Virus record (IMG/VR): IMGVR_UViG_3300005836_000003
Span: 1-42,111 of that record
DNA length: 42,111 nt
Origin: a virus
Strand: one strand, 5' to 3'
Positions 9,574 through 37,565 of the stretch are shown here, in pieces (position 1 is the stretch's first letter; each line of letters starts with the position of its first letter). A program made the translations under genes and the position numbers. The notes below the pieces were generated by a model, which made no database searches, had not been told where the DNA came from, and was given only the letters and a program-made list of their open reading frames with translations.

Positions 9574-10698
9574 TCAGGTATAGGCGGGGATCTGCAGGTC
9601 GTCGTCGATCCAGTCGAGCATGAGCTGGCCCGAGGTCGCGAGGATCGGGGTCGCGGGGCGGCCGTCGGGGTTGTTGGTCGGGTTGCCCCAGTAGATCCGG
9701 TGCAGCGAGTCGCGGTATCCCGCGAGCCCGAGCTGCGCCTTGAGCGCCTCCTCGACGAGCAGGGCCGTGCCCGGCTCGTGCGGGTCGAGGCAGGTCGGGA
9801 TCGAGACGCGCGCGGCCGCGGCGGCGAGGAACTGCGCCTTGGTCGTCGCCGCGCTGCCGAGCATGATCCCGTCCGCGGCGCTCCCGCCGTTGACGATGAA
9901 CAGCGGCAGGCCCCGGTTGGGGTACAGGTCGGCCTCGACGTACGGGAGGAAGCTCGAGGCGCGGCGCACGTCCGGCGAGACCTGCTGGAGCTTGGGGCTC
10001 GCGTCGTGCCACTGGTTCGCGCCGTACAGCGGCAGGAGGTTCGCCGAGAGCCCCGCGTCCGCCGCGAGCCGCAGGTCGGAGAATACGTCGACGAGGATCG
10101 CCGCGCCGGCGCGGTGGTCGAAGTAGGGCACCATCGGGTGGTCGCGCCGGTAGCCGAGCCGGTCGGGGCTCTCGTACGGGAAGGCGCCGGGGAGCTGGAG
10201 CAGCGACCAGGCCCAGTTGTCGGAGCCGCTCGAGATCCCCTGGCATACGACGCGCTCGGTCCGCCAGGTCGTGCGGTGCGCGGTGCTGTTGGTGATGCGG
10301 CCCTGGTAGCCCCAGGTCTTGGCCATCTGGACGGCCTTCGCCATCCGGGCCAGGTTCTCGGGGAAGGAGTCGACCGGGTAGATCTGCGGCCAGGAGCCGG
10401 CCGTCGTGGTGCTGTATCCGGACGGCCAGTGCACGAAGCCGACGGCCCAGCCGGCGGCGAGCAGCGTGTCGGCGAGCGAGGACACGGGCAGCGCGTAGCC
10501 GGTCGGGTCGCTCCAGCGCTTCGAGTGGTGGTCGCTCGACGTCCAGCCGCCCCCGTACGTCGAGAGGAGCAGGCTGATCTCCTCGTGGCTCTCCCAGTCG
10601 GCCGGCAGCCAGATCGCAAGCAGGCACTGGGAGCGCTCGTCGTAGAAGTCGACGAAGTCGGCCGAGGCCCATGTGTAGGCGGCGGGGACGCCCGGCAT
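9574..10698 (-). CDS. Alpha/beta-hydrolase fold esterase, tail-associated
   Basis: 374 residues, ATG overlapping the stop of the upstream fibre gene (ATGA). The order of motifs is that of serine esterases: a beta-rich start, the oxyanion-hole loop STYGGGW (46-52), the nucleophile elbow GISSG (154-158, nucleophile Ser156), an acid candidate Asp276 in VNGGSAADG (269-277), and His307 in LDPHEPG (304-310). All three triad candidates are in the expected order. No secretion signal is present, which fits a virion component. Phage particles use such enzymes to remove acetyl or other ester groups from capsule or lipopolysaccharide. It lies between a tail fibre and a putative polysaccharide-active protein, supporting this. 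A peptidase of the same fold cannot be excluded. Confidence 0.72.
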   Translation of the reverse strand: MPGVPAAYTWASADFVDFYDERSQCLLAIWLPADWESHEEISLLLSTYGGGWTSSDHHSKRWSDPTGYALPVSSLADTLLAAGWAVGFVHWPSGYSTTTAGSWPQIYPVDSFPENLARMAKAVQMAKTWGYQGRITNSTAHRTTWRTERVVCQGISSGSDNWAWSLLQLPGAFPYESPDRLGYRRDHPMVPYFDHRAGAAILVDVFSDLRLAADAGLSANLLPLYGANQWHDASPKLQQVSPDVRRASSFLPYVEADLYPNRGLPLFIVNGGSAADGIMLGSAATTKAQFLAAAAARVSIPTCLDPHEPGTALLVEEALKAQLGLAGYRDSLHRIYWGNPTNNPDGRPATPILATSGQLMLDWIDDDLQIPAYT

Positions 10699-12251
10699 CA
10701 GGCCAGCCCCCCGAGCTCGCCGCCGTTGCGGGATATGAAGGCCTCGAGCGTCTGCGGCTCGAGGCGCGCGGTGTCGTCGTACGCGCCGGAGATCGCCCAG
10801 CGGACGCCGAGGATCGTGTGGCCCTTGTTGTCGACGTAGTTCTCGCTGCCGTTCGCGAAGGCGACCTCGCAGTCGACCTCGTCGTGCGCGCCGGCGATCG
10901 GCGACGAGAGCAGGAAGGCGTCGTCGCCCTGCGCCTCGTTGCCCGCGGCGCCGCGCTCGACCGCGGCGGTCGCGGCGTCCCAGATCCCGCCGCCGTCGAA
11001 CTCCGTGCCGGCGTCGACGGCCGCGTCGAGGCCGGAGATCGAGCCGACGACGTCGAAGGCGTGCGAGCCCGCGGCGAGGTTGTAGGCCTCGCCCATCGCG
11101 ACCGCGGTCGCCGTCGCGTTCGCCACGCCGCCCGCGATCGTCGCGGGCCCGTTGGTCGCGTAGAGCAGGCCGGAGACCACGCCCTGGATCTGCGTGCCGG
11201 CGGGGATGACGGTCCCGTTCGTGCCCGTGAAGTGCGCCGTCCCGCTCGCCGAGCCCGAGATCGTGCCGGGGAAGCGCGTCCGGAACAGGAGCGAGGTCGC
11301 GACGCTCGCGATCGTCGTGCGCGCCGGGATGAAGGTCCCGAGCGCGCCGCGGAATCGCGCCGTGCCCGTGGCGCGGCCGGAGAGCGGCGTCGTGAAGTTC
11401 CAGAGGTTCGCGGAGTCATGCCGGCCCCAGTGCAGCTCGATCGCGGTCCCGGACTGGAAGCGGTGCCCGCTGCTCGCGCCGATGTCCGGCGCCCAGAAGC
11501 GCGAGAGGATCGTCTGCCGGCTCGTGTCGCGGCCGACGATCCAGACGTCCCACATGAAGGGCCGCTCGGTCGCCGCGGCGCCCGCCGCGATCGAGCCGTA
11601 GAGGACGACCGCGCGCGCCGAGCCCCAGGAGTTGGCCTTCCCGTAGACGTTCCCGTTCGGGTCCATGCACAGGAAGATGTTCCGCGGGCTGCCGTCGTTC
11701 TGGAGCAGGCGCCCGGTGATGCGCAGGTGCAGGACGACGCCCGGGCCCATGCGGCCGCGCCGGATGAAGGGCCCGTTGTCCTGCTGCCCCGGGTCGAGCG
11801 GGTAGATCCCGTGCGAGGTCGACGTCGCGCCGGTCATCGCCTGCGGCCCGCAGCAGTTGTAGAACTCGCCCGCGGCCTCCTCGTAGACGTCCGCCGGCCA
11901 GCTCCCGCCGGAGGCCCCTACCGTCCAGCTCCCATGCGCGCGGAAGATCAGCTCCTCGTGCCGGGCGGGCTCCAGCCAGGGGCGCGCGATCGCGTTGAGC
12001 ACGCCGGCCTGCGCGGGCGGGAGGCCCTGGACGTAGAGCGCGTACAGCGCCGCGAGCAGCTGCCCCGAGTTGGCCTTGTCGGGCGGGATGCCGGCCGCGG
12101 CGAGCACGCCGATCAGCTCGTCGGAGATCGAGTTGAGCCAGTCCGCCGAGACGATCGTCCCGCTCTGCGGGGTCGCCGCGTAGGGCTGCCCGTCCTGGAA
12201 GCGGCCGCCGACCGATCCGGGGGTGTCGATGCGGAACACGGGCGCGAGCAT
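10698..12251 (-). CDS. Tail fibre/receptor-binding protein with baseplate-J-like repeats
   Basis: 517 residues from the ATG at 12251. Residues 6-68 (FRIDTPGSVGGRFQDGQP, then IVSADWLNSISDELIGVLAAAGI and QLLAAL) match the N-terminus of the second fibre at 18829-20010; this is the common phage fibre N-terminal module that attaches to the tail. The middle is beta-rich and includes FEYNCCGP-type aromatic and cysteine residues. At about 310-400 come two tandem copies of a motif, GTARFRGALGTFIPARTTIA and GTAHFTGTNGTVIPAGTQIQ, closely matching the domain of baseplate J in this window (GTVRFTGTDGTAIAAGATLR). It heads the group with the esterase and the 709-residue protein. Receptor binding is inferred. 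Confidence 0.75.
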   Translation of the reverse strand: MLAPVFRIDTPGSVGGRFQDGQPYAATPQSGTIVSADWLNSISDELIGVLAAAGIPPDKANSGQLLAALYALYVQGLPPAQAGVLNAIARPWLEPARHEELIFRAHGSWTVGASGGSWPADVYEEAAGEFYNCCGPQAMTGATSTSHGIYPLDPGQQDNGPFIRRGRMGPGVVLHLRITGRLLQNDGSPRNIFLCMDPNGNVYGKANSWGSARAVVLYGSIAAGAAATERPFMWDVWIVGRDTSRQTILSRFWAPDIGASSGHRFQSGTAIELHWGRHDSANLWNFTTPLSGRATGTARFRGALGTFIPARTTIASVATSLLFRTRFPGTISGSASGTAHFTGTNGTVIPAGTQIQGVVSGLLYATNGPATIAGGVANATATAVAMGEAYNLAAGSHAFDVVGSISGLDAAVDAGTEFDGGGIWDAATAAVERGAAGNEAQGDDAFLLSSPIAGAHDEVDCEVAFANGSENYVDNKGHTILGVRWAISGAYDDTARLEPQTLEAFISRNGGELGGLA

Positions 12252-12311
12252 GGCGCGGCCGCGGTCGCGGCGCAAGCGCGCAGCGGGTACGCTCCGCGCG
12301 GAGGTAAGACC

Positions 12312-12758
12312 ATGATCCAGCAGACCCTCGCCCTGCTCGCCGTCGCCTGCTCGCTCCTCGCGCTCTCCGCCTGCCGCGCCGTCGCGCTCGAGGACCTCTC
12401 GCCCGAGCAGTTCGCCGCGCGCGAGCGCGTCGTCTACCTGGTCTCGAAGGCCGCCGGCGCGCGCATCGTCGCGGAGGGCGCCGCGGACGCGGCCGACCTG
12501 GCGCGCGCGGCGTCCATCGTCGAGGCCGCGGCCGGACAGGACGTGCCCGGGGCGCTGCTCGCCGCGGGCCTGCTCGAGCCCGAGTGGGAGCTGCTCGGGC
12601 TGCTCGTGCAGCAGGAGCTCGAGCCGTGGCAGCTCGATCCGCTCCTGCCGCGCATGGTGGCGGCCGCGGCGCGCGGCCTGCGCGAGGGCGCGCTCGGGAT
12701 CTCCGAGCCGGAGCGCGACGAGCTGCGCGAGCAGCCGGCGCCGCCCGGATCCCGCTAG
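12312..12758 (+). CDS. Lipoprotein of unknown function, only plus-strand gene
   Basis: 148 residues with a strong Shine-Dalgarno (GGAGG, seven bases before the ATG). The N-terminus is a classic lipoprotein signal: MIQQ, a hydrophobic stretch (TLALLAVACSLLAL) and a lipobox LSAC with the acylated Cys21. The mature part is acidic and helical (DLSPEQFAARERVVYLVSKAAG, then VEAAAGQDVPGALLAAGLLEPEWELLGLLVQQ) with a Pro-rich end. It would be anchored in the cell envelope of the infected cell or lysogen. Its stop overlaps the stop of the convergent gene. A TACGCT at 12288-12293 may be its -10, but no good -35 is visible. Candidates are a superinfection-exclusion or conversion lipoprotein, or an outer-membrane spanin partner. 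Confidence 0.7.
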   Translation: MIQQTLALLAVACSLLALSACRAVALEDLSPEQFAARERVVYLVSKAAGARIVAEGAADAADLARAASIVEAAAGQDVPGALLAAGLLEPEWELLGLLVQQELEPWQLDPLLPRMVAAAARGLREGALGISEPERDELREQPAPPGSR

Positions 12759-13063
12759 ATGTTGCGGCGCGCCTGGACCTCGACGATCGAGCTCCAGTAG
12801 GTCTTGCCCGAGACGACGGCGCGGCCCTGGACGAGCCACTCGCCGGCGGCGTCGAAGTCCGCGCCCGAGCTCAGGTAGCTCGCCTGGGCGGCCTGGCCGA
12901 CGACCGGCGTGAGCGCGCGCTCGAAGGGCGCCGCGCTGCCGACGGGGGAGTCGAAGCGCGCGACGAGCTCGGTCGCCGCCGAGACGTCGAAGGGCGAGCC
13001 GTCGGAGCGCGAGAACTCGCACAGGACCTCGACCGCGGAGCCGACCTGGACCTCGAGCAGCAC
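12755..13063 (-). CDS. Small beta-rich tail/baseplate accessory protein
   Basis: 102 residues, GTG start. The sequence has the layout of a single Ig-like or BppU-N-terminal-like domain found in small phage tail proteins: VGSAVEVLCEFSRSDGSPFDVSAAT, then a central 'AQASYLSSGADFDAAGEWLVQGRAVV' region and a terminal WSSIVEVQ strand. In such proteins the first half resembles 'G....l.v...D.dG.p.DLS.At' and the second 'd..G.W.vqa.v'. It sits just after the repeat-rich beta-helix gene and is probably a particle component. The exact position in the virion is unknown. Confidence 0.6.
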   Translation of the reverse strand: MLLEVQVGSAVEVLCEFSRSDGSPFDVSAATELVARFDSPVGSAAPFERALTPVVGQAAQASYLSSGADFDAAGEWLVQGRAVVSGKTYWSSIVEVQARRNI

Positions 13064-13072
13064 GCGGCGAGG

Positions 13073-16000
13073 CTACCCGTCGCTCATCCCGAGCGCCAGC
13101 CGCAGCGGATCGCGCATCGGCAGCTCGAGCGCGAGCGCGTCGAGGACCACGGCGGGGAGCGCGAGCGAGCCCGCTACGACGAGCGGGAGCTGGAGCAGGA
13201 ACTCGGGCGGCTCGACGCCGAGCACGGCGACCTGCGGCGCGGCGGCGTGCGCCTGCGCGGCCGCCGGCGCGAGCAGCCAGGAGAGGTCGAGCGCGGGCGC
13301 CGCGGCGGACGCCGAGAGCGCCGCGGGCCCGGGCGAGAGCGCGATCTCGAGGACGAGCGCGGCCGCCGGCGCCTGCGCGGCCGCGGCCGCCGCGCCGGGC
13401 GAGAGCGCGAGCGCGAGCGCGAGGGCGGGCGCCGGCGCGGAGGCCGAGACCTGCGCAGCAGCGGGCGAGAGGTCGAGGAAGGATCCGGCCGCGGCGATGG
13501 GGGCGGAGGTCGAGACCGCGGCGGCCGCGGGCTGCAGCGCCAGGTCGAGCGCCAGCGCGGCCGCCGGAGCCTGCGCGGAGGCCTGCGCCGCCGAGGGCTG
13601 GAGCACGACGTTCGACGTCACGAGCGGGTCGGGAGCCGCGAGGACCGCCTGCGCGGCCCCAGGATCGAGCCGCAGCGCCAGCGCGGCCGCGGGCGCGGAG
13701 GCGGCCGCGGACGCGGCGGCGGGCGCCAGGTCGAGCGCCAGGGACACGCCCGCCGCCGGCGCGGAGGGCGAGGCCGCTGCCGCCGAGGGCGAGAGGATCT
13801 GCCCGAGCACGAGCGCGGGGTCGACGAGCTTCGCCCGCGCCTTGCCGGCGGCCGGCAGCATCGCCAGCGCGAGCGCCGGATCCGGGGCCGCGGCCGAGGC
13901 CGCCGCCGAGGCGGGCGAGAGCACGATCGGGGTCCCGACCGCGGCGACGACCTTGGGGGCCTTCGCCGTCGCGGCCGCGCGCTCGGGGGAGAGCGCCAGC
14001 GCGAGCGCGAGGGCCGGCGCCGGCGCGGAGGTCGCCGCCGCCGCCGCCGAGGGCTGCAGCAGGATTACGGCGCTCGAGCCGACCGTCGCGGCGGGCGCCT
14101 CGAGCAGCGCGACGGCGGGCGCGTCCGAGACGACGATCCCGGCGAGCGCCTGCGACCAGGGCGGGTAGGCCGCGTTGGGGCCGGCGAGCGCGTCGATCTG
14201 GGCGTTCGTGAGCAGCCCGTTCCCGCTCCCCGTCTGCGCCGGGTTCGCGGTGTAGCCGTAGCGGACCTTCCCGCCGGTCGCGCCGAAGCCCGGCCAAGTG
14301 TGCGGGGTCGCGCCGTAGACGGCCACGTCGAATTCGAGCGTGCCGCAGTCGAGCGGGCCCGAGTTCATGCCGCCGCCGGGAGCGAAAGAGAAGCAGCCGA
14401 TCGCGGCGCGCGAGCCGTCGACGTCGTGCCCGCGCAGCACGACGGAGGACGCGCCGGCGAGCGCGATGACGTCGCGCGGCTGCGTCCAGGGCGACGCCGC
14501 GCGGAAATAGAAGTCCTCGATGGCGACGGCGCCCGTGTGGAAGGCCGTCCGCGAGAGCGGCCAGGGCGCGGAGTCGAACTCGCCGAGCGTCGTGTGGAGC
14601 CCCTTGCCCCAGTCGCCCCAGACGACGATCCCGCCGCCGTGCGAGTTGATCGAGCGGAGGCGGATGAAGTCGACCGTTCCGAGGAAGCCGGCGACCGTGA
14701 AGGCGCTGGCGCCGTTCTCGCAGCAGCCGTCCGCGGTGCAGTCCTCCATCCTCGAGTTTCCGAAGCCGGGCGGCCCGCCGTAGATCGGGCCGCCGTCCGC
14801 GATCGCCCGCTGCACGAGCTGGATGCACGTGCGGCCGGTGCGCGGGACGGCCGGAGCGGCCGCGTACGTCACGTTGCGCACGCCGCGCGCCCAGAAGCCG
14901 CCCTGGGGCGCGTCGACGTAGATCACGTGCTCCTCGCACTCGCCGCCGATCAGCTCGAGGATCTCCCAGCGCGCGTAGCCCGCGCGGATGCAGGTCTTGG
15001 TGTCGTACAGGCTCCCGTAGTTCTTGGCGCCCGAGCACTCGCAGTCGTAGAAGCCGAAAAGGCCGTTGACCTCCTGGTCCCCGAGCGGCGTCGACCAGCA
15101 GTAGGTCGTCCCGCCGGGATTGTGGAAGTCGCAGCGGTAGAAGCGCAGCGCGTCGAGCGGGCCCTGGTCGTGCGTGACGGCCATGTTGTCGCGCACGAAG
15201 CGGCTCGCGCCGAAGCGCCGGATGCGGGCGCGCGCGAGCGGGTCGACGCCGACGATATACAGATCGTGGATCCGCGCGAACGGGCCGGTGTGCGGGCCCC
15301 AGTAGGCGCAGTAGGTCTTGCCCGTGTCGGTGTCCCCGATCGAGACGAAGTCGAGGTCGCAGCCCGGGGCGATGTCGATGCGGTTCCCGGGGCCCGAGCG
15401 GCGGATCGCATCGGCCAGGGCCTTGTCGTCGAGCGGCCCGCCGTAGCGCGTGTCCGTCGTGAAGAAGCCGCCCGTTGCCATGTTCCGGATGCGGTAGCGG
15501 TTCGGGACGGTGCCGCCGTTGTAGCCCGGCTGCAGCTCGACGACGAAGGTCGTCGCGGGCAGCGCCGGGTAGGAAGTCGGCGGCGCATCGGTCACGGAGA
15601 GGTCGAGCTCGCAGTCGGGCAGCGCCAGCGCGAGCGCGGCCGCGAATGGCTGGAGCAGGACCTCGAGCGCGAGGGCGGGCGCGGGCGCCGAGATCGAGGC
15701 CGCCGCGGCCGCGGGCGCGAGCGCCAGGGCGAGCGCTAGGACCGCCGCGGGCGCGGAGAGCGAGGCCGAGGCCGCGGAGGGCGCGAGCACGGTCCCGAAG
15801 TCGAGCTGGGGAGCGGGCGCGGACGCGACGGCCGCCGCGGCGCTCGGCGCGAGGTCGATCGAGAGCGCGAGCGCGGGAGCCGGCGCCGAGCAGGTCGCGG
15901 CCGCGGCGGACGGCGCGAGCGCGAGCGCCAGGGCGAGCGCGGGCGCCGGCGCGGAGAGCGCGACCGCGGCCGCCGTCGGCGTCTCGACGATCGGCGTCGG

Positions 16001-16627
16001 GACGGGGAGCAGGGCGAGGCTGTCGCAGATCCAGTCCGCGCTCGTGATCGAGCGCGAGGTCGACGCCTCCGTGCCGGCGCTCGCGCGGGTCTTGTGCTCG
16101 GAGACGACGCGCGCCGTGTTCGCGCCGGCGTCGATGTCCTCCGTCCAGGTCGCCGGCGGCGAGGTCGCGGAGTTGCGCCGGTACGCGACCAGGTGCACGC
16201 AGAGCCGGTCCGAGCCGGCCGTCGTGATCGACGGCGACGTGACGGTCGTGCTCGTGCCCTTGCCCGAGTTGAGGCCCTCGTACGGCGTGCCGACGCCGAT
16301 CGCGTCGCGGTAGTAGACGATCCGCGAGCTGCCGTCGTCGGAGATCGAGAGCGTCGTCGTCGCCGTGCCGCCGTTCTCGCTCCCGTCGCAGCGCCGCCAG
16401 GCCGTGAAGGAGTGGTGGTCGGTCGTCTGCTCCGCGCCGGCGATCGGCGTGAAGCCCGAGGCCCAGCTCGAGACGGACTGCCCCGAGGCGGTCGCCGAGC
16501 AGGTGATCTGCAGTATCGCGATGTCGCCGGCGGCGATCCCGGACGCCGCGTGCGGCGTCGGCACGCTCGCGCTCGCGAGGAAGGAGCCGCCGGTCGGCCC
16601 GTTCTGGTTCCAGCTAGGAGCTGCCAC
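13073..16627 (-). CDS. Giant beta-helix tailspike-like protein with two Ala/Pro/Leu repeat arrays
   Basis: 1184 residues, GTG start at 16627. Layout: residues 1-210, a jelly-roll-like domain (GDIAILQITC, FTAWRRC, SSRIVYYRDAIG) of the kind found on phage tail proteins; 214-346, six 22-residue repeats; about 360-800, a cysteine-rich region typical of right-handed parallel beta-helix/pectate-lyase-like proteins (IRRSGPGNRIDIAPG, FYRCDFHN, FYDCECSGAKNYG, HGGGIVVWGDWG, SSVVLRGHDVDG); 835-1140, about 13 more repeats; then a short Leu-rich end. The beta-helix probably binds or cleaves a surface polysaccharide; catalytic residues cannot be named. The repeats likely form an extended shaft or linker on both sides. 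No signal peptide. Confidence 0.75.
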   Translation of the reverse strand: MAAPSWNQNGPTGGSFLASASVPTPHAASGIAAGDIAILQITCSATASGQSVSSWASGFTPIAGAEQTTDHHSFTAWRRCDGSENGGTATTTLSISDDGSSRIVYYRDAIGVGTPYEGLNSGKGTSTTVTSPSITTAGSDRLCVHLVAYRRNSATSPPATWTEDIDAGANTARVVSEHKTRASAGTEASTSRSITSADWICDSLALLPVPTPIVETPTAAAVALSAPAPALALALALAPSAAAATCSAPAPALALSIDLAPSAAAAVASAPAPQLDFGTVLAPSAASASLSAPAAVLALALALAPAAAAASISAPAPALALEVLLQPFAAALALALPDCELDLSVTDAPPTSYPALPATTFVVELQPGYNGGTVPNRYRIRNMATGGFFTTDTRYGGPLDDKALADAIRRSGPGNRIDIAPGCDLDFVSIGDTDTGKTYCAYWGPHTGPFARIHDLYIVGVDPLARARIRRFGASRFVRDNMAVTHDQGPLDALRFYRCDFHNPGGTTYCWSTPLGDQEVNGLFGFYDCECSGAKNYGSLYDTKTCIRAGYARWEILELIGGECEEHVIYVDAPQGGFWARGVRNVTYAAAPAVPRTGRTCIQLVQRAIADGGPIYGGPPGFGNSRMEDCTADGCCENGASAFTVAGFLGTVDFIRLRSINSHGGGIVVWGDWGKGLHTTLGEFDSAPWPLSRTAFHTGAVAIEDFYFRAASPWTQPRDVIALAGASSVVLRGHDVDGSRAAIGCFSFAPGGGMNSGPLDCGTLEFDVAVYGATPHTWPGFGATGGKVRYGYTANPAQTGSGNGLLTNAQIDALAGPNAAYPPWSQALAGIVVSDAPAVALLEAPAATVGSSAVILLQPSAAAAATSAPAPALALALALSPERAAATAKAPKVVAAVGTPIVLSPASAAASAAAPDPALALAMLPAAGKARAKLVDPALVLGQILSPSAAAASPSAPAAGVSLALDLAPAAASAAASAPAAALALRLDPGAAQAVLAAPDPLVTSNVVLQPSAAQASAQAPAAALALDLALQPAAAAVSTSAPIAAAGSFLDLSPAAAQVSASAPAPALALALALSPGAAAAAAQAPAAALVLEIALSPGPAALSASAAAPALDLSWLLAPAAAQAHAAAPQVAVLGVEPPEFLLQLPLVVAGSLALPAVVLDALALELPMRDPLRLALGMSDG
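13208..14125 (-). repeat. C-terminal array of about 13 coding repeats of about 66 bp (22 residues)
   Basis: The coded unit is L-x-P-x-A-A-x-A-x-x-S-A-P-x-P-A-L-A-L-x-L-x, 22 residues in most copies (20-24 in a few). Examples are LSPAAAQVSASAPAPALALA and LQPSAAQASAQAPAAALALD, each followed by two residues. Copies are diverged, so this is an old repeat kept by selection on the protein, not a recent nucleotide duplication. Confidence 0.85.
15590..15988 (-). repeat. N-terminal array of six coding repeats of 66 bp (22 residues)
   Basis: Same unit as the C-terminal array, for example LAPSAAAATCSAPAPALALS and LAPAAAAASISAPAPALALE, each completed by two residues. Phase is exact at 22 residues through five copies; the sixth (beginning LQPFAAALALALPDCE) is degenerate and leads into the beta-helix domain. 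Confidence 0.85.
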
Positions 16628-16648: not shown

Positions 16649-17092
16649 CTAGGCGATCTGGATGATCCCGCCGGCGTTCCACTGGATCGTGACGTTGGCG
16701 CCGTTCGCGGTGAACGGGAAGCCGCCCGAGTCGATCCAGGCCGCCGGCAGCGAGGCGCCGAGGCTGCCCAGGTAGACGTAGACGATCGCGCCCTGGACCT
16801 GGCGCGTGCCCGCGCCGAGCGGTCCGAAGGCCGCGTCGTTCGCGTCGGCCTCCGCGCGGTTCTGCCCGGAATTCTCCGAGAGCGCCTCGCCCGTCAGCGC
16901 GACGCCGCCGGTCGAGTAGCCCGAGCCGTCGAACTCGTCGAGGGTCGTGAAGCCCGCGATGGTGTTCGCGTCGTCCTCCGTATTGGCCGTCGTGTTGGTC
17001 ATCGCGAGCAGGACGCGGACGTCCGACGAGTCCCAGTCGACCTCGCCGGCCGCGAGCGCGCGCTTGAACTCGTTGTAGATGAAGTTGGCCAA
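16649..17092 (-). CDS. Tail-fibre-region protein, paralogue of 18356-18796
   Basis: 147 residues from a TTG at 17092 behind GGAGG (eight bases upstream). Begins LANFIYNEFKRALAAGEVDWDS, then VRVLLAMTNTTA, a recurrent phage module ('iYn.fk..l..g.idwdsd.ikv.Ll'). The rest is beta-rich (GYSTGGVALTGEAL, GAIVYVYLGSLG, FPFTANGANVTIQWNAGGII). It aligns in outline with the 18356-18796 protein: TAALKALLLG for VRVLLAM, then ADTDAAVLSDFAALAE for TEDDANTIAGFTTLDE, then GYSRQALSGVTV for GYSTGGVALTG. Such genes usually lie among fibres and are thought to be particle components. Confidence 0.7.
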   Translation of the reverse strand: MANFIYNEFKRALAAGEVDWDSSDVRVLLAMTNTTANTEDDANTIAGFTTLDEFDGSGYSTGGVALTGEALSENSGQNRAEADANDAAFGPLGAGTRQVQGAIVYVYLGSLGASLPAAWIDSGGFPFTANGANVTIQWNAGGIIQIA

Positions 17093-17094
17093 GC

Positions 17095-17382
17095 TCAGGT
17101 CCTCCGGGGCTTCGGTCGGGGCGCCGGCTCGGCCGGCGGGTCTGCGGCCGGCGGCGCGCCGGCGGGGTGCTCGATGTAGCGGTCGAGCGCGATCTGCGTG
17201 CGCGCGGGGGCGGCCTTGAAGGCGGAGCGCGCGGCGGGGTAGGCGACGACGGCGAGCGCGGCCCCGAGCGCGGCGCAGGCGCGCACGAGCACGGGCTCGG
17301 CGGGCGCCCAGGCGAGGGCGAGGAGGGCCGCCGCGATCGCGTGCGGGCCGAGGAACTCCGTCGTCAGCAGGCCGGGCTTCAA
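17095..17382 (-). CDS. Holin-like small membrane protein
   Basis: 95 residues, TTG start at 17382 overlapping the upstream stop (TTGA), with GAGGCGAGG before it. Starts KPGLLTTEFLG, which matches the 'GwkTTEFw' N-terminus of a frequent phage holin-like group, followed by two hydrophobic segments (HAIAAALLALAWAP, about 14-27; VRACAALGAALAVVAYPAA, about 33-51) and a Pro/Ala-rich cytoplasmic-type tail ending in basic residues. Holins form the lethal membrane lesion at lysis. The other neighbours are also membrane proteins, but no endolysin is adjacent, so the lysis role is inferred from the protein alone. Confidence 0.6.
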   Translation of the reverse strand: MKPGLLTTEFLGPHAIAAALLALAWAPAEPVLVRACAALGAALAVVAYPAARSAFKAAPARTQIALDRYIEHPAGAPPAADPPAEPAPRPKPRRT

Positions 17383-17607: not shown

Positions 17608-17958
17608 TCAGTGGTCGGGCTCGGGCTCGGCCGCCGCGTCGCGCGGCATGAGGCTCGGGACCTTCTGCGCCTCGAGCACGGTGGCGCAGTGGCGCTCGAG
17701 CCACTCCCGCACGCTCTCGCCCTGCGCGGCGCGCGGGGTCTCCAGGGTCACGAGCCCGGAGCTCGCGGGGTACGTCGTGCGCGTGCGCTGCGCGGAGACC
17801 GCGCCCCCGATCAGGGCCAGCGGCTCGGCGACGCGGTCGAGCGCGCGGCGGACCGTCAGGCCCTGCAGGACCAGGATCGCGCCCAGGAGCAGCGCCGCGA
17901 TCGGCCCCCAGGGCGCGCCCTGCAGCGACCCGCGCGCGCTAGCGGCGCGAGATCGCAT
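17608..17958 (-). CDS. Small membrane protein, possible lysis-cluster component
   Basis: 116 residues. A basic start (MRSRAASARG) is followed by one transmembrane segment (PIAALLLGAILVLQGLTV, about 18-35), then a soluble part with SAQRTRTTYPASSG and a helix ESVREWLERHCATVLEAQK, ending in an acidic Pro-rich tail. The N-in topology predicts a periplasmic or external domain. It overlaps the end of the preceding gene by 20 bases. Neighbours are a TM/coiled-coil protein and a holin-like protein. A spanin or lysis regulator is possible but no family is recognised. Confidence 0.5.
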   Translation of the reverse strand: MRSRAASARGSLQGAPWGPIAALLLGAILVLQGLTVRRALDRVAEPLALIGGAVSAQRTRTTYPASSGLVTLETPRAAQGESVREWLERHCATVLEAQKVPSLMPRDAAAEPEPDH

Positions 17959-18319
17959 CGAGCTTCCCCAGTATCTTGGGTATCTCCCGCGCCGCGTCGC
18001 GGACCTCGGCGAGGTCGCGCTTGATCGTGCCCAGCTCGGCCGAGAGCATCTGCGCGTTCGCCTGCCAGCGGGTCTCGGAGACCTCCTTGGTGACGTAGCG
18101 GCTCGCGACGGCGTCGAGGATCTCGGACTTCTGGACCTCGCTCGAGCGCCCGAACCAGAACGCGAAGGCGGCGAACTGGAGCAGCGCGCCGACGAGCCCG
18201 GCGACGATGCCGACGCTCATCGTGGTTCCCGTACCGATCCCTCGCTTGTCCCGCATCGCGGCTCGACTCCCCGGGGCAGATTCCGCAGCCCTCTCCGCCG
18301 GCGGTTGCGGAAACGCCAT
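17939..18319 (-). CDS. Single-pass membrane protein with coiled coil (spanin- or XhlA-like)
   Basis: 126 residues from the ATG at 18319; internal ATGs at residues 22 and 34 are possible alternative starts. A transmembrane segment at about 36-56 (VGIVAGLVGALLQFAAFAFWF) is followed by a helix with heptad pattern (RWQANAQMLSAELGTIKRDLAEVRDAAREI). This N-terminal anchor plus coiled coil is the architecture of inner-membrane spanins and of haemolysin-XhlA-type phage proteins. Located beside a holin-like gene. The family cannot be settled by eye. Confidence 0.55.
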   Translation of the reverse strand: MAFPQPPAERAAESAPGSRAAMRDKRGIGTGTTMSVGIVAGLVGALLQFAAFAFWFGRSSEVQKSEILDAVASRYVTKEVSETRWQANAQMLSAELGTIKRDLAEVRDAAREIPKILGKLDAISRR

Positions 18320-18355: not shown

Positions 18356-18796
18356 TCAAAGGTCCAGGACCTTCCCGCCCGGGAACAGCGCCTCGAGCTG
18401 CCGGCCGATCGGGACGTAGGGGAAGGCGATCGAGGCGGCCTCGACCTCGTTCAGGTACGCGACCGGCAGGTCCGATCCGGGCCCGCCGTTGTCCGCGATC
18501 ACCAGGATCGCGACTACGGCCTCCGAGGCTCCGGCGAGCACGCCGAAGTCGAGGTCGTCCGCGCCCATCGCGGCGCCGTCGGCGTCGGAGGTCACGGTGA
18601 CGCCCGAGAGCGCCTGGCGCGAGTAGCCCGCCGCGTCGGACTCCGCGAGCGCCGCGAAGTCCGAGAGCACGGCCGCGTCCGTGTCGGCCGCGGCCGTGGT
18701 CGACGCGCCGAGCAGCAGCGCCTTAAGCGCCGCGGTCTCGAGGTCGAGCGCGCCGGTCCAGGCCGCGGCCCGGGCGGCGGGGTAGACGAAGCTCAT
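18356..18796 (-). CDS. Tail-fibre-region protein, paralogue of 16649-17092
   Basis: 146 residues, ATG start. Short N-terminal segment (SFVYPAARAAAWTGALDLET) then LKALLLGASTTAAADTDAAV, and beta-rich remainder (GYSRQALSGVTVTSDADGA, DDLDFGVLAGASEAVVAILVI, GSDLPVAYL). The same order of elements occurs in the 16649-17092 protein; the two copies bracket the membrane-protein cluster. This type of gene is common next to tail fibres, and may be a small fibre-associated virion protein. Function not established. Confidence 0.65.
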   Translation of the reverse strand: MSFVYPAARAAAWTGALDLETAALKALLLGASTTAAADTDAAVLSDFAALAESDAAGYSRQALSGVTVTSDADGAAMGADDLDFGVLAGASEAVVAILVIADNGGPGSDLPVAYLNEVEAASIAFPYVPIGRQLEALFPGGKVLDL

Positions 18797-33987: not shown

Positions 33988-35955
33988 CTACGCGCCGCTG
34001 GACTCGACGAACCCGCGGTAGTCGATCGCGGCCGCGGCGCGGACGGCGAGGTAGCTCGTCGTCATGCCCTTGGTGCGGAAGTCCATCTCGGTCTCGACGA
34101 TGATCGGCTCCGCGCCCGTGAGCGAGCAGAGCTCGATCATGTCGATCTGGTCGGGCGTCGCGAGCAGCCACCACTTGGTGGCGGGCAGGCGCGCGTCGGA
34201 GACCACGCCGCGCAGGAGGTCGACGAGCGGGTTCGCGTTGCCGGCGGTCTCGGGCACGATCTGCGCCATGTACTGGCGCAGCGTGATCTCGAGCGCGCTG
34301 CCGCCCATGAGCAGGCGCCCCTCGAGGTTGAGCCGGTCGCCGTTCGGGCTGGTCTGGTTGCGCATCAGCGCGCGCGCGCCCGCGATCTTGTCCACCGCGG
34401 GGGCTCCGGTCGCGAGGTTCGCGTGCGTCGAGTGGAACAGCGCCAGGCCCGTCTCGTCCATCACCTGCGGGGTGGTGATCACGGCGTACACGAGGTCGCC
34501 CTCGAGCGTGGAGACGGCCGCGCCGCCCATCGCGAGCTGGCGGCCGATGAAGTCGAGGTCGTCGTTGATGAGGGACTCCCAGGTCGTCGCCACGGCCTTG
34601 CCGTACTTGGCGAGCGAGTAGCCCTGCGCCGCGTCCGTGATGATCCCGTCCTGGATCTCGCCGCCCTCGTAGACGCGCGTGAGCTGCGGCAGGCCCGAGC
34701 CCGAGACGCGCGAGACGGGCTTGAAGTCCGGGGCGCCGACGCGGGTCGTGAAGGGCTCGAAGGTCCGCGGCGCGCGCTCGTAGGCCGCGCGGAGCGTCTT
34801 GTTCTGGACGTTGGCGAGCGCCTGCGGGAAGTCGCTCGTGGAGTGGAAGGCGCGGCGCGCGATGTCGACGTCGGACATCAGGCCGCAGCGCACGCCCTGG
34901 CGCTCGAGGAACCAGGCCGCGATCCGCACGGACCGCATGCCGCGGAACGAGCGCGCGAGGTCGCCCTGCGCCGCCGCGGCCACGGGTCGGCCGCCGCGCA
35001 GCTCCAGGCCGGCGAACAGCTCGGCCCGGACCTTGTCCTCCTCGGCCTCGGTCACGCGCGCGCCGCCGGCGGACGTGCGGACCTCGTCGTCGCGGCTCGC
35101 GAGCGAGTCGAGGATCGCGGCCCGAGCCTGCTCGAGCGTGCGCCCCTTGTCGACGAGCTCGGCCTCGAGCTCGGGCGCGACGCGGTGCGCGCGGCAGAGC
35201 ACGCGGATCGCGGCGATCCGCTCGCGCTCGGCCGATCGGGCGGCCTCCGCGGCCGCGGCGATCGCGGCGTCGGCGGCGGCCTTCTCGGCGGCGATCCGGT
35301 CGGCCTCGCGCTTGGCGTCGGCGGCGATCTCGGCGGGGGTCTTGGTCGTGACGGTTTCGGGCGGCATGTCGGCGCTCCGGAGGACTTCGCAGGGGTTGAG
35401 GGTCGCGCCTTGCGGCGCTCCGCGGAAGCCGGCTCCGGCGTCCGCGGGGATCGGTACGGGGCTGATCTCGAAGGGCTCCCACTTGCGGACGATCCACACG
35501 GGCTTCCCGTCGACGAGCTCGGAGGTCTTCTCGATGCCCAGGCGCTTGTAGCCGAAGCTCACGCTGCCGAGCGTGCCGTCCTTGATCCGGCCGACGATCG
35601 GGGCCGCGTCGGGCTGCGCCGTGAAGCGCAGCCGGGCCGTGCCCTTGCGGGCGGCGGCGTCGACGCGGGCGGAGCCGGCCATCACGTTCCCGACGACGTC
35701 GGTCCCCGAGTAGGAGCTGTGCGCGTCCAGGACCGGCGCCCGGCCCGAGTTGAGCCGGCCGAGGTCGACCGCGTCGGCCGAGAAGTCGAGCCGCTCCCAG
35801 TAGAGCTGGTCGCTCCGGTAGTCGTAGCGCAGCACGTCGGCGCCGGCGGTCCAGGTGACCTCGACGCTGCGGTCCTCGTCGCGCCAGGACGCGAGCTCGA
35901 CGTCCGCGCGCAGCGCGCAGGGCTCGAGCATCCACACGGCGGAGGTCGGGGGCAC
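33988..35955 (-). CDS. Prohead protease-scaffold-major capsid fusion protein
   Basis: 655 residues from a GTG at 35955. Residues 30-175 form an S78/HK97-type prohead protease: APVLDAHSSYSG (73-84, catalytic His79), IKDGTLGSVSFGYK (124-137, Ser133) and FEISPVPIPADAGA (162-175). Residues 205-290 are an Ala/Glu-rich coiled coil (scaffold delta-domain-like). Residues 300-655 form the HK97-fold capsid protein (DFPQALANVQNKTLRAAYE, 375-393; WESLINDDLDFIGRQ; NNANPLVDLLRG-like; PATKWWLLATPDQID). The fusion is self-consistent with phages where one polypeptide is cut after assembly. The frame has no internal stop. The start lacks a strong ribosome site. Confidence 0.88.
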   Translation of the reverse strand: MPPTSAVWMLEPCALRADVELASWRDEDRSVEVTWTAGADVLRYDYRSDQLYWERLDFSADAVDLGRLNSGRAPVLDAHSSYSGTDVVGNVMAGSARVDAAARKGTARLRFTAQPDAAPIVGRIKDGTLGSVSFGYKRLGIEKTSELVDGKPVWIVRKWEPFEISPVPIPADAGAGFRGAPQGATLNPCEVLRSADMPPETVTTKTPAEIAADAKREADRIAAEKAAADAAIAAAAEAARSAERERIAAIRVLCRAHRVAPELEAELVDKGRTLEQARAAILDSLASRDDEVRTSAGGARVTEAEEDKVRAELFAGLELRGGRPVAAAAQGDLARSFRGMRSVRIAAWFLERQGVRCGLMSDVDIARRAFHSTSDFPQALANVQNKTLRAAYERAPRTFEPFTTRVGAPDFKPVSRVSGSGLPQLTRVYEGGEIQDGIITDAAQGYSLAKYGKAVATTWESLINDDLDFIGRQLAMGGAAVSTLEGDLVYAVITTPQVMDETGLALFHSTHANLATGAPAVDKIAGARALMRNQTSPNGDRLNLEGRLLMGGSALEITLRQYMAQIVPETAGNANPLVDLLRGVVSDARLPATKWWLLATPDQIDMIELCSLTGAEPIIVETEMDFRTKGMTTSYLAVRAAAAIDYRGFVESSGA

Positions 35956-35993
35956 GCCCGTACTATGTCGCGCGCAGCGGCTCGCGCAAGACC

Positions 35994-37565
35994 CTAGGCG
36001 GGAGGCGCGGCGGGCGCGGCGCTCGCCTGCCCCTGCGCCGCGCGGCTCGGGTCGGAGTCGAGCGTGATCCCGAGCGCCCGCGCGCGCTCCCAGTCGGACG
36101 CCTGCTCGGCCATCAGGTCCTCGGGCCGCCAGCCGCTCGCGCGCTGCTCCTCGGAGAGCGTCGAGAGCCCGCCGCGGATGCGCGCGACGGCGGCCTCGGC
36201 CTCGATCTTGGGCTCGATCATGCCCCGGCTCGGCGGCGTCCAGCTCATCCGGCAGCCGGGCGCGATCAGGCCCGCGAGCTCGGCCTGCGAGCGCCAGGCG
36301 CGCCAGACCCCGCGCACCAGCTGCGGCACGAGCCAGTCCGTGCGCCAGCCGGCGAGCTCGCGCTCCCAGTCGAGGTTGCCGATCCTCGCGCTCGAGAAGT
36401 TGACCTGCGAGAGGTCGCCCGCGAGCACGTGGTACGGGACGCCGTAGCCGACGCCGATCCCGTGCAGCGTCAGCTTGGGGAAGTCCTCCATGCCCTCGAC
36501 CCCGGGCGGGCTCGCGAGCGTGATCTGCTCGCCGGGCTGGAGCTTCTGCACGGTCCCCGGCTCGAGCTCCTCGGTCGCCTTGCCCGTCGCCGAGATCGCG
36601 CCGCCGGAGTCCTCGAACTCCGTCGTGATGAAGCCCGCGAAGCACGCCGCGAGCTTGGTCCGCACCATCGTCGCGTCGGCCCAGTCGTTCAGGTCCCGCA
36701 GGTCGAGCAGGCAGGGCGCGCCCCAGGGCACGCCGCGGACCTGGCCCGCGCGGTCGACGCGGTAGACGTGCAGGAGCGAGTCGGCCGGGATGAAGCGGGA
36801 CTCGAGCGTCCAGCCGGCGACGCCCGGATGCTGCGACCAGACCCAGTATCCGACCCGGCGGCCGCGCTGGTCGAACTCGACGCCCAGGCGCCGCAGGCGC
36901 CCGCCCTCGTCGGGCAGGCCGAGCACGCTGTCCTGCGTCGAGTCCAGGAACTCGCTCTCGAGGATCTGGACCTGCAGCGGGACCGCCAGGCCGTCGGACT
37001 GCCGGCGCAGGCGCAGGCGCGCCAGGCACTCGCCGGCCTCGGCGACCTCCGCGGCGGCGAGGCGCTGCAGGCCGTAGAGGCTCATCCGCCCGTCGGCGTC
37101 GGCATCCTCCTCGGCCCACTGGTCGAACAGCTCCTGCGCGAGCAGGCGGTCGGCATCGCGCTCGTGCTCGACCACGACGCGGACGCCGTCCCCGACCATG
37201 TGCGTAGAGATCGCGCGCTTGGCCTTCGCCGCCCACTTGTTGTTGCGGGAGAGGTCGCGCGAGCGCTTCACGAGCTCGGCGAGGAACGTCGAGCTCGTCG
37301 CGTCGGGCGCCGTCAGGGGCGCCATCCAGCCCTGCGTGCGGGCCGTGCGCGAGGCCGCGTCGAACTTGCGGACCTCGCTCGAGCCCGCGGGGTCGCGCCG
37401 GCGGCCGCGCCGCTCGCGCAGCTCGTGGAAGGCGTCCAGGGCGATGCGCGCGCGCTCCTCGCGCAGGCGCGCGGCCTGGCGCGACGCGGCCCAGGCGGGC
37501 GAGGCGGCGCGCAGCACGCGCTCGAGCAGCGGGTCGCGGCGCGGGAGCTTGTCGGCGGCCGGCAT
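35994..37565 (-). CDS. Portal protein (lambda gpB family)
   Basis: 523 residues, ATG overlapping the gpW-type stop (ATGA). Signature segments: LVKRSRDLSRNNKWAAKAKRAISTHMVGDG (92-121 in part), the 'R.L.rNn..a..ai..i...vvG.G' portal signature; QILESEFLDSTQDS; VGYWVWSQHPG; ILHVYRVDRAGQVRGVPWGAP-type loop; DLSQVNFSSARIG (about 388-400), the 'nyss.R' motif. Twelve copies make the DNA entry vertex. Length about 520 is normal. Confidence 0.93.
   Translation of the reverse strand: MPAADKLPRRDPLLERVLRAASPAWAASRQAARLREERARIALDAFHELRERRGRRRDPAGSSEVRKFDAASRTARTQGWMAPLTAPDATSSTFLAELVKRSRDLSRNNKWAAKAKRAISTHMVGDGVRVVVEHERDADRLLAQELFDQWAEEDADADGRMSLYGLQRLAAAEVAEAGECLARLRLRRQSDGLAVPLQVQILESEFLDSTQDSVLGLPDEGGRLRRLGVEFDQRGRRVGYWVWSQHPGVAGWTLESRFIPADSLLHVYRVDRAGQVRGVPWGAPCLLDLRDLNDWADATMVRTKLAACFAGFITTEFEDSGGAISATGKATEELEPGTVQKLQPGEQITLASPPGVEGMEDFPKLTLHGIGVGYGVPYHVLAGDLSQVNFSSARIGNLDWERELAGWRTDWLVPQLVRGVWRAWRSQAELAGLIAPGCRMSWTPPSRGMIEPKIEAEAAVARIRGGLSTLSEEQRASGWRPEDLMAEQASDWERARALGITLDSDPSRAAQGQASAAPAAPPA

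Follow-up and report, generated by a model that had tools for sequence, protein, structure and literature searches.

We find that a 1184-residue putative virion protein carries two arrays of a 22-residue repeat on either side of a large central domain, and that the repeat unit, judged by its residue pattern, belongs to a widespread, unnamed phage repeat family whose structure is unsolved. The arrangement is unusual; the part itself is not new. The protein is probably a modular fibre on the surface of a contractile-tailed phage, either a tail fibre or a spike, composed of a sandwich domain, a six-unit stalk, a central domain and a thirteen-unit stalk. We base this on the gene order in the tail cluster, on the scores of both arrays against a profile made from other phages, on a shared hydrophobic alternation and on predicted strand pairs. 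Moreover, the N-terminal domain is related to domains accompanying these repeats elsewhere, homologous repeats occur in minor tail proteins of PHROGs 553, and the nearest relative phage (loci L093/L173) also combines a sandwich-like domain with a repeat, albeit a different one. From this evidence we infer the location of the protein in the virion, its assembly into a fibre and its binding of a receptor or polymer.

The window, i.e., the whole stretch of DNA analyzed, covers the whole of an IMG/VR virus record and comprises 42,111 bases at 75% GC. It encodes a contractile-tailed phage with a lambda-type portal, S78 protease and capsid, two-domain tail sheath, tape measure, DNA_circ_N protein, baseplate J, gpI-like wedge protein and tail fibre. 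Genes are ordered portal, capsid protease/capsid, sheath, tape measure, baseplate J, gpI-like wedge, tail fibre, phrog_644, the 1184-residue gene and a further fibre. The gene under study thus lies beyond the baseplate genes in the tail-fibre cluster, with a phrog_644 gene on one side and a small Ig-like gene on the other, followed by the second fibre. The interval given by an earlier, sequence-only reading coincides exactly with one single ORF; its strand, which that reading had left out, is minus (16627..13073, GTG start). GC at the three codon positions is 0.71/0.61/0.97, the pattern a genuine gene would show at 75% GC, and competing frames, e.g., 10698-15038 on the minus strand (GC3 0.76), were rejected by GC3. 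We assigned the following features:

13073..16627, minus strand: whole gene of the 1184-residue modular virion fibre protein (putative), from the ORF, GC3 of 0.97 and the tail-fibre cluster
15998..16627, minus strand: N-terminal β-sandwich (jelly-roll-type) domain, residues 1-210, from hhalign profile comparison
15593..15985, minus strand: array 1, residues 215-345, five clear and one degenerate 22-residue unit, from autocorrelation, AlphaFold strands and the other-phage profile
14123..15592, minus strand: central domain, residues 346-835 (about 490 residues), β-helix-like by eye only, a sequence impression
13208..14059, minus strand: array 2, residues 857-1140, thirteen units, from autocorrelation and the other-phage profile
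13073..13207, minus strand: C-terminal tail, residues 1141-1184, Leu/Ala-rich, from sequence only
12755..13063, minus strand: next gene, small Ig-like cap protein, GC3 of 1.00
16649..17125, minus strand: phrog_644 gene directly upstream of the fibre gene, PHROGs E 2e-19

As a whole, the protein had no PHROGs match at E ≤ 1, and so no direct match to the PHROGs 553 model. Bacterial Ig-like Big_12 scored 20.3 bits, under the Pfam gathering cut-off of 27, and a search of 29 portal-relative records gave no match. Three further observations concern the surrounding genes. A single long ORF (33988-37236, minus) matches both Peptidase_S78 and a capsid protein and is possibly a protease-capsid fusion. 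A tail-fibre-like protein (10698-12725, minus) contains a Baseplate_J-like β domain at residues 492-568, apparently with a second similar copy. Two phrog_644-type genes (18356-18796 and 16649-17125, minus) flank two small genes with a single membrane span each (17608-17958 and 17939-18319), possibly a lysis cassette.

Both arrays are strongly periodic. Autocorrelation at lag 22 reached z = 10.2 in array 1 and 7.8 in array 2, with further peaks at 44 and 66. Proline anchors, read by hand, lie in array 1 at residues 217, 239, 261, 283 and 305 with a degenerate one at 327, and in array 2 at 859, 881, 905, 925, 947, 969, 989, 1011, 1033, 1055, 1077, 1099 and 1121. They match the six and thirteen diverged units that had been counted by eye around the central domain; spacing is 22 residues, apart from a few units that measure 20 or 24. 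Units carry Pro-1, Ala-4, Pro-13 and hydrophobic residues at 15 and 21, Pro-13 being replaced by Ala in about 40% of the window units. A DNA pattern of one unit matched seven times in the window compared with 0.10 matches expected in shuffles. The 13 regular units share 57% amino-acid identity, and identical residues use the same codon in 55% of cases, precisely the 55% expected from codon usage. We therefore rejected a recent DNA-level tandem duplication as the origin of the arrays, which are old and conserved as protein sequence.

As first query for relatives we used a repeat in the Thr/Gly style of phage tail proteins. It matched 13 Mycobacterium and Gordonia phage records (loci L005-L008 among them), most of them annotated as minor tail proteins and members of PHROGs 553 (category tail) and related tail families. 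The sequence-only reading, which had pointed to Thr/Leu-rich relatives in phage tail proteins, was thereby borne out on this, and the metagenomic repeat search it had proposed uncovered further arrays in IMG/VR contigs. For these, a DNA pattern of two consecutive units was run on IMG/VR, which gives lower bounds; the fetched loci, window excluded, contained at least about 30 ORFs with three or more periodic units, many of them near-identical mycobacteriophage copies. Both window arrays scored above 1000 of 1000 shuffles with a matrix built from 24 actinophage units. With a profile of 16 rows, all from outside the window, array 1 obtained 109 bits and array 2 obtained 201 bits, compared with maxima of 49 and 90 bits in 200 residue shuffles and 66 and 146 bits in 200 dipeptide shuffles. 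Together with the autocorrelation and the DNA pattern count, these shuffle-controlled scores led us to reject chance or a low-complexity artefact.

In Mycobacterium and Gordonia minor tail proteins and in metagenomic phages the repeat reads P-x-x-A-x-h-x-h-T-G-x-x-P-x-h. Its register and in-out alternation agree with the window position by position, including positions 15, 19 and 21, and the outward positions 5, 7, 9, 14, 20 and 22, which are Thr or Ser in other phages, are often Ala or Ser in the window. On this sequence evidence we count the window repeats as members of the family. Low-complexity filtering makes the unit difficult to detect by BLAST, and in the literature searched we found no published description of it. 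Passages of the Douge cryo-EM paper that deal with CBM-fold baseplate proteins and a fibre stem describe no such repeats (PMC13033339).

Could the Ala-rich unit have arisen by convergence under extreme GC, with no homology to the Thr/Gly-rich phage repeats? Units are short and simple, and arrays on contigs of higher GC contain more Ala (n = 17, Spearman 0.64, p = 0.006), a correlation that is suggestive only, since several of these arrays come from related mycobacteriophages and are non-independent. Still, both prolines, Ala-4 and the hydrophobic positions stand in the same register, the score lies beyond the reach of dipeptide shuffles, and the arrays share an N-terminal domain and a phrog_644 neighbour. 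Moreover, Ala-rich arrays are present in at least five other contigs (L237, L256, L398, L401 and L410), and these five as well as L314 have a GC content of 50-67%, so GC is not the whole cause of the bias. We hence regard convergence as very unlikely and homology as the reading to follow. The Ala bias of the window arrays partly tracks genome GC, at a suggestive level; it had been called striking, an impression weakened both by this trend and by the Ala-rich arrays elsewhere.

The fold of array 1 was predicted with AlphaFold on residues 217-345 from a 38-row alignment of window and related loci. Each of the six units was predicted as a strand of about 7 residues, a 4-residue turn, a strand of about 8 residues and a 3-residue turn, at moderate pLDDT of 64-78. 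This lends support to the repetitive β fold proposed for the arrays from sequence; disorder, named beforehand as the outcome speaking against it, was not obtained at this moderate confidence. Foldseek of the model against the PDB gave no significant match; the best hits were β-solenoids, with the CsgA fibril first (E 0.2, TM 0.13). Curli CsgA and other two-strand β-solenoids resemble the window arrays in having about 22 residues and two strands per unit. Beyond those poor CsgA scores, they differ in that the window lacks Gln/Asn ladders and places Pro in the turns. A PDB sequence search with array and sandwich profiles found nothing convincing. In BFVD a single match fell below 0.001, to a phage protein named 'collagen triple helix repeat'; with an rmsd of 44 it was not informative.

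Alternatively, the arrays might serve as flexible Ala/Pro-rich spacers that lack a regular fold, with structure confined to the N-terminal and central domains. The low-complexity composition with 40% Ala, the only moderate AlphaFold confidence and the lack of a PDB relative would fit. Against this, position-specific conservation across unrelated phages is well above shuffles, hydrophobic alternation is strict, a strand pair is predicted in every unit and the arrays fall on the folded side of the charge-hydropathy plot. Flexible spacers are thus unlikely, and we continue with a folded, rod-forming repeat.

For the N-terminal domain, the sandwich profile of other array proteins gave an hhalign score of 27.3 (E 0.002), collinear over about 50 columns, compared with at most 15.0 for 60 shuffles and 12.0 for the reversed sequence. 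Weak BLAST and phmmer matches to L344 and L337 cover this region as well. A sandwich profile of four actinophage sequences was not significant, whereas the broader one was, and a search of 284 genomes from the phylum of a Myxococcota MAG gave no match. The profile comparison thus indicates that this domain, already read as jelly-roll-like, is a distant relative of the β-sandwich that accompanies these repeats elsewhere.

The central domain had no match in Pfam, PHROGs or the PDB and no relatives in phage, viral or genome contig collections; AlphaFold, given the single sequence without relatives, reached a pLDDT of 32.5, too low for the model to be of use. The β-helix proposed for it was hence not confirmed. 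A right-handed β-helix is suggested by eye, from sequence features such as DDKALADAIRR...RIDIAPG and Gly/Cys-rich rungs. Pectate-lyase-like β-helix tailspikes look similar by eye, with a DD-x-A-x-x-x-A-I...P-G-like start and Asn/Gly/Cys-rich rungs, but show no statistical match. We know of no β-helix tailspike with such repeat stalks on both sides.

Domains and arrays are mixed in several ways among phages, and array-domain-array layouts recur. The same repeat, Ala-rich in several cases, is found in the metagenomic proteins L344, L410, L398, L314/L360, L348/L390, L366, L256, L237 and L401. L344 shares its N-terminal sandwich with the window protein and continues with about 29 units, whereas in L331, L337 and similar proteins the units precede the sandwich, and L398 has sandwiches, units and an Ig-like cap within one ORF. 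In L348 and L390 a small domain (its identity in L348 read from sequence) separates two units from many further ones; the array of L366 is also interrupted. In L314 (6978-9104) and L360, the closest counterparts of the window protein, about 11 Ala-rich units directly follow a β-helix-like domain on a contig of 50% GC; this domain was read from sequence and had no support from Pfam in L314. A domain between two shafts had been thought unusual. This holds for the insert of about 490 residues, since among the matches listed only the window protein has such a domain between arrays of 6 and 13 units; smaller array-domain-array or domain-array proteins do exist (L348/L390, L366, L314/L360). Actinophage minor tail proteins (PHROGs 553; e.g., Avani gp26, Bipolar gp20, Gibbles gp37 and prophiGD02-2 gp102) have repeats of 20-24 residues in matching register next to a related β-sandwich, and are encoded among virion tail genes. 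Unlike the window protein, they have one Thr/Gly-rich array, usually of 5-10 units, a C-terminal sandwich and no large central domain.

Neighbouring genes bear on where such proteins sit in the virion. A phrog_644 gene accompanies the array gene, adjacent or close by, in the window (E 2e-19), L344 (1e-26), L237 (9e-21) and L256 (1.5e-7), and by motif also in L401 and L366. In L398 the array protein carries, fused at its C-terminus, an Ig-like domain similar by eye to the small cap protein; this domain matched BppU_N weakly, below cut-off (E 0.0018). The array genes of L256, L348, L398, L410 and L401 are near genes reading by eye as head-tail connector or tail terminator, which suggests a neck or head fibre for those phages. 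Accordingly, the window protein might be a fibre of the neck or head, or a decoration protein, i.e., an adhesin near the head-tail joint rather than a tail fibre, as would also fit a phrog_240 'head protein' gene, which in the closest relative lies upstream of the array. We consider this rather unlikely, because in the window and in mycobacteriophages the array gene lies beyond the tail tip or baseplate genes, and retain the tail fibre or spike as the more probable reading. Judged by its portal (55% identity), L093/L173 is that closest relative; beyond its tail genes, next to phrog_240, it encodes a sandwich-like domain with a 21-residue repeat of another kind. The different repeat at a comparable place suggests that repeat stalks may be exchanged there. 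In L173 (1-756, minus; contig IMGVR_UViG_3300031716_000039) the β-sandwich-like domain is followed by the 21-residue repeat (ATLDAQLGGLSSSATSTVEHS), cut by the contig end.

We propose that the N-terminal β-sandwich would be followed by a six-unit stalk, the large central domain and a thirteen-unit stalk. Each unit would fold strand-turn-strand-turn with Pro in the turns, its Leu/Val/Ile residues pointing to one side and its Ala/Ser (in other phages Thr) to the opposite side. Stacked units would form a long rod, its length determined by the number of copies, with the central domain either inserted into the rod or flanked by a rod extension. This domain probably recognizes a polymer on the host surface or breaks it down.

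The general repeat family is more interesting than the window protein itself. Tentatively, the repeat may be a widespread, undescribed virion β-rod module whose fold is absent from the PDB and which can take up receptor-binding or depolymerase domains at any point. The window protein would then be the clearest stalk-domain-stalk example, with two unequal rigid segments holding a central enzyme off both ends. The 22-residue unit, invisible to Pfam and PDB, links mycobacteriophage minor tail proteins with fibres of unrelated metagenomic phages. A modular stalk in which repeat count sets length and cargo domains swap would be relevant to how phages build and retune their host-recognition fibres.
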